From: Meiothermus sp.
GTDB lineage: Bacteria; Deinococcota; Deinococci; Deinococcales; Thermaceae
Assembly: GCF_026004115.1 (NCBI RefSeq)
Contig: NZ_BPIM01000001.1
Location: forward strand, 1-64,000
Direction: 5' to 3'
Length of the DNA: 64,000 nucleotides
Shown: in pieces, positions 18,297-63,109 of the stretch
How positions within the stretch are numbered: position 1 is the first letter of the stretch
How the letters are laid out: every line of letters starts with the position of its first letter
Made by a program: the position numbers and the translations under genes
Notes under the pieces: generated by a model
Database searches by the model: none
Seen by the model: only the letters and a program-made list of their open reading frames with translations
What the model was told of the DNA's origin: nothing

Positions 18297-18559
18297 AGGA
18301 TCGGTGCGTGAACCCTCGCAAACCCCAGCCAGGAGCGGTTCCCACGAATATCCCACACCACATCCTTTGGAAGCTAGGGCGTGTGGGGTAATTTACGCTG
18401 CATCGCGTGTAGCGTAAATGTGGGAAACGCAAAGGAGCACTTCAAGCGCATTGTATTGCAAAAAATGCTCGAAGGTAGGTGACCTGGCCGGGTGTTATGC
18501 CCCCTCCTAGCCTCCCCCGCTGGGGGGAAGGCGCGGTTTTACTTTGTGCACCGGCCCTG
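18297..18559. repeat. Inverted-repeat element, copy A (host family)
   Basis: This fills most of a gene-free stretch at 18238-18668. Its ends are imperfect inverted repeats (CAGGATCGGTG at 18297-18307, CACCGGCCCTG at 18549-18559). The interior matches the element at 27440-28157 in three blocks: 18305-18333, 18437-18503 and 18508-18559. The other copy has 11/11 matching ends. The part 18335-18430 is absent from that copy and is a separate insertion. No reading frame is present, so it looks like a non-autonomous (MITE-like) element or a structured intergenic repeat. Confidence 0.65.
18335..18430. repeat. 96-bp structured insertion inside repeat copy A
   Basis: Ends GCGGTTCCCAC (18335-18345) and GTGGGAAACGC (18420-18430) pair at 10 of 11 positions. 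Between them are two further perfect inverted repeats: CCCACAC/GTGTGGG (18352-18358, 18381-18387) and ATTTACGCT/AGCGTAAAT (18391-18399, 18411-18419). The strand can therefore fold as a three-way junction. The segment is missing from the related repeat at 27440, where the flanks join directly. Confidence 0.6.
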
Positions 18560-27386: not shown

Positions 27387-27550
27387 TCCCCTACAATACA
27401 GCCCCCCAGCGCCAAACTCGGGCTGAAATCTGCACACCTCAGGGCTGGTGTGTGAACCCTCGCAAACCTCAGCCAGGTGCACTTCAAATACTTGGTGTTG
27501 CAAAAATGCTCGTAGGTAGGCGCCTGGCTGGGTGTTATGCCCCCACCCAG

Positions 27551-27669
27551 TGCACGGGTAACTTGTTTAGCGGCATGTTTTGAAGCATGTGGATTGCCCA
27601 TATTTGCGATGAGCGGCTCAGTGGGAGGTACTGAAGTGCGTACCAAATTCCTGGTTTCCAGACCACTAG
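27551..27669. repeat. 119-bp dispersed repeat, copy 1
   Basis: It aligns without gaps to 62991-63109; I count 23 differences in 120 aligned bases, about 81% identity. The ends carry a short subterminal inverted repeat (GGGTAAC at 27556-27562, GGTTTCC at 27653-27659, which is GGTTACC in the other copy). It is absent from repeat copy A at the corresponding place. No open reading frame is conserved between the copies. Confidence 0.7.
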
Positions 27670-27702
27670 CCTCCCCCGTTCGGGCAGGAAGGAGTGGTTT
27701 TA

Positions 27703-28136
27703 TACCGGATTCAAAAAGATAATCATCCAAACTAAAGATCCACCAGAGGCTATCTTTTTGAATCCTAGAGCACCCCCCTCCCGAACGGTCGGCGAAGAAA
27801 GTGTCTCCTTTCCAAGGGGCGGTATCGCCCTCCGCTACGCGGATAACTTCCAAGGGGCGGTATCGCCCTCCGCTACGCGGATAACTTCCAAGGGGCGGTA
27901 TCGCCCTCCGCTACGCGGATAACTTCCAAGGGGCGGTATCGCCCTCCGCTACGCGGATAACTTCGGCCCGGTTAGTTCGCCGCCATACAGCGCCGTACTA
28001 GGTGCGCCCACAATAGATTTTTGTGGTGACGGTTTCGGCGAAAGAAGTGGCCGGTCTTCAAAGCGGCGCAGCTTATGGGCTCCCCTTTTCGGGTAGAGCA
28101 AATTCCTAACGTTGTTGTACTTAACCGAATCTGGTA
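27703..28136. mobile_element. 434-bp MITE-like element with TTA target duplication
   Basis: Termini TACCGGATTC (27703-27712) and GAATCTGGTA (28127-28136) are inverted repeats matching at 9 of 10 positions. TTA is present on both sides (27700-27702 and 28137-28139). Copy A has the unoccupied sequence GGTTTTACTTTGTGCACC at 18535-18552. Inside are a 15-bp perfect hairpin (27707-27721 with 27751-27765), four 38-bp tandem repeats and a tail shared with 20586-20673. It encodes no transposase, so it would need one supplied in trans. Confidence 0.65.
27812..27963. repeat. Four perfect tandem copies of a 38-bp unit
   Basis: Units start at 27812, 27850, 27888 and 27926 and are identical. Each contains two small hairpins, GGGCG-gtat-CGCCC and CCGC-tac-GCGG. 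A fifth, diverged unit lies at 20586-20622, with a GU-compatible change in the first stem. There are no spacers, so this is not a CRISPR array. Confidence 0.9.
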
Positions 28137-28261
28137 TTACTTTATGCACCAGCCCTGCTGCACACCTGTACGCAATCCGCCCCCTTCTGTGAGGTTCATG
28201 CAAATGCTCAACAAAAATTCTGGGGCGTCCCAATGAGCCCCAGGGTTCAGTTCTAATTAGC

Positions 28262-62965: not shown

Positions 62966-62990
62966 TCCAGAAGAAGCACCACGATTCTTG

Positions 62991-63109
62991 TGCGCGGGTA
63001 ACTTTTTTTGCGGTACGTTTTGAAACACGTTGATTGTCCAAAATTGCGATCTGCAGCCCATTGGGAGGCACTGAAGTGCATGCTGAATTCTTGGTTACCA
63101 GACCACTAG
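62991..63109. repeat. 119-bp dispersed repeat, copy 2
   Basis: Partner of 27551-27669, about 81% identical with no gaps. Subterminal GGGTAAC (62996-63002) and GGTTACC (63093-63099) form an inverted repeat. It stands alone in the 317-bp gap between the DUF4388 gene and metH. The rest of the gap has a B12-box-like string at 63151-63166 and the metH -10. Confidence 0.7.

Follow-up and report, generated by a model that had tools for sequence, protein, structure and literature searches.

The window analysed here is a stretch of 64,000 nucleotides of Meiothermus sp. (contig NZ_BPIM01000001.1, positions 1 to 64,000), from a genome of 3.35 Mb in three contigs. At 27703-28136 it carries a modular MITE, the TACC element. 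The features of this locus, together with one paralogous site elsewhere in the window, are listed below.

18535-18552, plus strand: paralogous empty site in copy A of the outer repeat, reading GGTTTTACTTTGTGCACC, the two flanks with a single TTA
27430-27439, no strand: left target duplication of layer 1, CTGCACACCT, present as the single copy CTGCACACGT in the related genome G020
27440-28157, no strand: outer mobile repeat (layer 1), with ends CAGGGCTGGTG / CACCAGCCCTG, containing all inner layers; this is the "related repeat" of the preliminary description
27551-27665, plus strand: 115-bp copy of a fourth repeat family, lying inside layer 1, with CTAG-type 4-bp flanks
27700-27702, no strand: left TTA target duplication of the TACC element, read in the sequence
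27703-28136, plus strand: TACC element (layer 2), a modular MITE with four 38-bp units and a later insertion inside
27703-27712, plus strand: left terminal inverted repeat, TACCGGATTC
27707-27765, plus strand: left hairpin, with 15-bp arms at 27707-27721 and 27751-27765 (z -4.9)
27774-27805, plus strand: optional 32-bp module, missing from the 125-bp core copies in the comparison of copies
27810-27964, plus strand: array of four 38-bp units (4.1 copies, 100% match)
27970-28126, plus strand: right hairpin, with arms at 27970-27984 and 27989-28000 plus 28124-28126, split by layer 3
28001-28121, minus strand: layer 3, a member of another family, 121 bp long, with TA as its target (TA at 27999-28000 and 28122-28123)
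28127-28136, plus strand: right terminal inverted repeat, GAATCTGGTA
28137-28139, no strand: right TTA target duplication of the TACC element
28158-28167, no strand: right target duplication of layer 1, CTGCACACCT

The preliminary description of this locus had given the same borders, terminal inverted repeats, flanking TTA, 15-bp hairpin and four tandem units, and had recognised the empty site in copy A. All of these were confirmed. Other copies shared the borders and a target duplication, and homology did not run on past 27703 and 28136. The length of 434 bp holds for the window copy but not for the family, since this copy is a composite of four 38-bp units and a separate, later TA-flanked element of 121 bp. 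The first reading had overlooked the mobile nature of the target and the third element within the copy, and had not recognised the tandem units as a single module in a variable series.

Used as a query, the 434-bp copy matched about 40 other copies in the same genome, most of which begin at the same base. There were 317 occurrences of TACCRGATTC and 3 of its reversed pattern. The left end of 20 bp was counted 167 times (75 and 92 on the two strands), with 0 for its reversed-pattern control, so the TACC ends are not a product of chance. We read about 454 kb of sequence surrounding these ends, located 156 left ends there and paired 146 of them with a right end. The family comprises about 160 small, gene-less copies in this genome, with TACC[GA]GATTC terminal inverted repeats at both ends of the copies. 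The core unit, which is also the commonest copy, is about 125 bp long and consists of a terminal inverted repeat with the left hairpin, a short spacer, the right hairpin and the second terminal inverted repeat. Between the two hairpins, longer copies carry zero to five 38-bp units, each of them a double hairpin (GGGGCGGTATCGCCC + TCCGCTACGCGGA), and the 32-bp module, which in some copies holds a 40-bp module. Copy lengths form ladders with 38-bp steps (63 copies with no unit, 33 with one, 27 with two, 16 with three, 4 with four and 3 with five). Insertion sites fell in frames of at least 200 codons in 33% of cases, against 55% for sites 250-450 bp away (42 copies), a crude comparison in a G+C-rich genome. 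At the right end (28127-28139, and at other right ends) the terminus together with a TAA or TTA target reads TGGTATAA/TGGTATTA, which resembles an outward-pointing extended -10 promoter box and may be read as a putative one.

The target duplication of the family is a 3-bp TNA. The preliminary reading of TTA is correct for the window copy and too narrow as a family rule. TNA lies on both sides of 122 paired copies in this genome. Because the pairing step favoured TNA, these copies are best judged by whether N agrees: the same N was found in 94 of the 122, where chance would give about a quarter to 30%. The other 28 differ in N and further copies lack TNA on one side; such copies may be decayed or recombined. 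Among pairs from other species, whose loci were fetched by the left side alone, 95 of 115 had an exact TNA duplication.

The target of the window copy is itself a mobile repeat. The outer repeat has the perfect 10-bp duplication CTGCACACCT on both sides, and among six other copies of about 113-166 bp the duplications matched at 10/10 positions in two and at 8-9/10 in two. Copy A of this repeat contains a further inverted-repeat insert at 18337-18433 (GGTTCCCAC ... GTGGGAAAC, with AGGAGC on both sides), which is missing in copy B and probably represents another small mobile family. The fourth family nested in layer 1 is represented by another 13 copies of about 115 bp, whose flanks are CTAG-like in most cases; it has many copies per genome, and two lie in the window (27551-27665 and 62987-63098). 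Insertion sequence families have usual target-duplication lengths. Duplication of a TA target, which marks IS630/mariner-type elements, was found for the layer-3 family, with TA on each side in 19 of 20 copies with both ends. About 20 copies of this family were read in the genome (window 28001-28121; L032-L051), with ends AGTACAACAAC / GTGGGCGCACT and a TA target that is often CTAG.

Since the window copy lies inside one mobile repeat and was itself hit by another, the insertions can be ordered with the help of related species. In G020 (88% identity) the flanks are joined as TGAAATCTGCACACGTGTCTGC, with one target copy and without the outer element. In G007 (94%; 94.9% over 137 bp) the orthologous site of the window copy is empty and reads AGTGGTTCTACTTTATGCACC. 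This genome keeps the right part of the outer element without the TACC element (AGTGGTTCTACTTTATGCACCAGCCCTGCTGCAC), and the sequence further left on the contig is unrelated. At this single locus in G007, precise loss of the TACC element and never having had it look the same. Comparison over a few thousand bases gives an ordered insertion stack: neither layer in G020, the outer repeat in G007, and the outer repeat, the TACC element and the third element in the window genome. There were three steps: the outer repeat inserted with a 10-bp duplication, the TACC element entered it with a TTA duplication, and the 121-bp TA-type element then entered the right hairpin of the TACC element. Other TACC copies have gap-free empty sites in M. 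hypogaeus (for example L188, 95%; L201, 95% over 200 bp; L277, 98%). The copies are polymorphic between close relatives, with flank identities at empty sites of 94-98%. Borders, duplications, empty sites, nesting order and modularity of the TACC copies could all be read directly.

The TACC family is a MITE family: its members are short, lack a transposase gene and have terminal inverted repeats and target duplications with empty sites. The common borders of about 146 paired copies, the TNA duplications and the orthologous empty sites support non-autonomous transposition. As the preliminary description had stated for the window copy, no transposase is encoded; no gene of this kind belonging to the element itself lies between paired ends in any copy read, in this genome or in the sampled loci of relatives. 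Scans with PF13340, PF13359 and PF01609 likewise gave no gene between TACCRGATTC ends among the hits read. Long pairs of terminal inverted repeats, considered as candidates for an autonomous element, proved to be something else. At 1746185-1747527 of the genome and at L151, MITE copies are broken by complete insertion sequences, the former by one with a 380-aa transposase-like ORF and a 7-bp AATCATC duplication and the latter by an IS5-type element with a TGA duplication; L245 is two MITEs on either side of a permease gene. No autonomous element with TACC ends was found in the sampled loci of this genome or of relatives, a point against the proposed mobilisation in trans. Of the earlier proposal of a non-autonomous family moved in trans, the family and its transposition are established, and movement in trans is inferred. 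A transposase encoded elsewhere would excise the unit at its TACC[GA]GATTC ends and insert it at TNA sites by cut-and-paste chemistry, leaving a 3-bp duplication and requiring no gene of the element's own. The partner may be lost or diverged, may come from a family other than those scanned or may lie outside the stretches read.

An IS5-type insertion sequence whose transposase would also work on TACCRGATTC ends is a tentative candidate for this partner. IS5-type elements in these genomes make TGA, TAA or TTA duplications (904 bp at L151, 972 bp at L152, 920 bp at L308), and the BrickBuilt MITE of P. gingivalis has been linked to IS5 elements through its terminal inverted repeats (PMC4596501). 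However, the IS5 terminal inverted repeats that we found (GAGGCTGTCGTAAAAG, GAGACTGTC.. and GAGCCTATCC..) begin with GAG and not with TACCRGATTC, and DDE_Tnp_4 had no match in four genomes. Because of this difference in the ends, we do not assign the TACC family as an IS5-derived MITE.

The core is strongly structured (folding z -9.0 for 125 nt), and its right hairpin varies in an unusual way. Counted as distinct sequences, shared ancestry included, and not as independent events, 10 of 18 pairs of the right hairpin were changed on both sides in 29 diverse core copies, single changes were GT/TG in 59 cases and AC/CA in 74, and the same right-hairpin arms recurred around a loop that was reverse-complemented in 22 of 131 cases, reversed in 2 of 117 and complemented in 4 of 131. 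In the same 29 copies the structure as a whole scored 0.159 for covariation, compared with 0.088 for shuffles and 0.022-0.073 when the structure was slid. The two arms of one copy differ at 10.8% of positions, and arms taken from different copies at 23.1%. Exactly inverted interiors with imperfect arms were found, for example, in L193 relative to L153, L234 and L240, and in L324 relative to L110 and L376. Of five asymmetric pairs listed, four interiors counted as present in both orientations once that of L086 was dropped, an artefact arising from a fragment that has ends at either side. In 220 copies, no inversion was seen in the left hairpin, whose loop is about 29 nt long.

Selection on an RNA should leave more G-U than A-C single changes on the functional strand. 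The counts above show no such wobble excess on either strand. Co-varying arms without a G-U excess, together with an interior in both orientations, are a signature of template switching and not of RNA selection. Two studies describe arm homogenisation and spacer inversion through template switching between inverted repeats (PMC8604942, PMC8794818), and the latter proposes that the process makes and maintains RNA hairpins. We infer that template switching during replication would keep the arms of the right hairpin matched and flip its centre.

The covariation could instead go back to several founders whose hairpins differed, each of which multiplied by transposition with no arm correction. Subfamilies are indeed present (TTAGTTCGTCACC, TTGATTCGTTACC and TTCGCCGCC types), and different hairpins are found behind identical upstream sequence. 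Yet founders give no exact inversions of the interior, whereas four asymmetric interiors occur both ways, and founders would still require a process that makes matched arms. We consider this explanation doubtful. It is improbable that selection on its hairpins maintains the element as a structured RNA or a regulatory repeat and that it is not a mobile parasite. The strong hairpins and covarying arms would suit such a role, and similar pneumococcal repeats are transcribed (PMC3049150), but the wobble test disfavours RNA function as the cause of the covariation, the hairpin interior occurs inverted and copies are polymorphic among close relatives. No Rfam family matched at the gathering score, with only chance matches below threshold. 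Less probable still is an orphan family with built-in arm correction, in which transposition or repair would pass through a single-stranded hairpin stage, with arm copied from arm and the centre able to flip, so that the palindrome of the right hairpin would be made perfect again on each jump.

Taken as a whole, the locus is very probably explained by a modular MITE family that duplicates TNA and would be moved in trans, with nested insertions and a right hairpin that would be subject to template switching. Its modules are arranged in the manner of BOX, with a core of about 125 bp formed by two hairpins and, between them, zero to five 38-bp double-hairpin units, the 32-bp module and sometimes the 40-bp module. 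The copies, about 160 in one genome and hundreds more in relatives, offer natural replicates for measuring template-switch correction and hairpin flipping in bacteria. Template switching can also mimic the covariation that is commonly taken as a sign of RNA function.

The family was found in 17 of 50 Thermaceae genomes and in three of five genera, namely Meiothermus, Calidithermus and one further sister genus. There was none in the 27 genomes of g4, a large sister genus with small genomes. Carriers among the matches listed include M. hypogaeus, M. taiwanensis, M. granaticius, M. rufus, Calidithermus chliarophilus and C. roseus. The family also occurs on a plasmid of M. taiwanensis, and a plasmid of Allomeiothermus silvanus has a weak partial match. 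An exact-pattern search of the wider class added no carrier beyond Thermaceae, and matches outside the family (Zixiibacteriota, Eubacterium, D16-50, Marinilabiliaceae) were single and without the rest of the element. An identical TACC insertion with its flanks (AGCTAA ... TAAGAA) was seen in two genera (L113/L122 in G002 and L121/L125 in G013), and is either an old shared insertion or a horizontal transfer.

A literature search, which covered few subscription papers, found no paper on Meiothermus MITEs. The insertion sequences ISTth1-8 of Thermus belong to the same bacterial family as the TACC host, but they bear a transposase, which the TACC MITE lacks, and the duplications listed for them mostly have lengths other than 3 bp (PMC6352166). 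BrickBuilt of Porphyromonas gingivalis, a MITE with a 23-nt minisatellite inside (PMC4596501), resembles the TACC family in its leader, tandem array and tail, its lack of a transposase, the empty sites in other strains and one copy carrying another MITE. BrickBuilt has 19 copies, a 4-bp duplication and a terminal inverted repeat, GAGACCTTTGCA, that matches ISPg1/ISPg9 of IS5; in contrast, the TACC family has about 160 copies, a TNA duplication and no matching insertion sequence found. BOX of Streptococcus pneumoniae and S. suis is built as boxA-boxBn-boxC, with about 125 copies per genome (PMC3049150). The TACC family shares with it terminal inverted repeats, target duplications, two constant, structured ends between which the number of internal modules varies (0-n), additional modules in certain copies and insertion of copies into one another. 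Unlike BOX, it lives in a host of another phylum and its hairpin centre is also found inverted, and the likeness drawn here is one of organisation. By this comparison, the TACC family is a new family that matches in kind systems already known, BOX and BrickBuilt.
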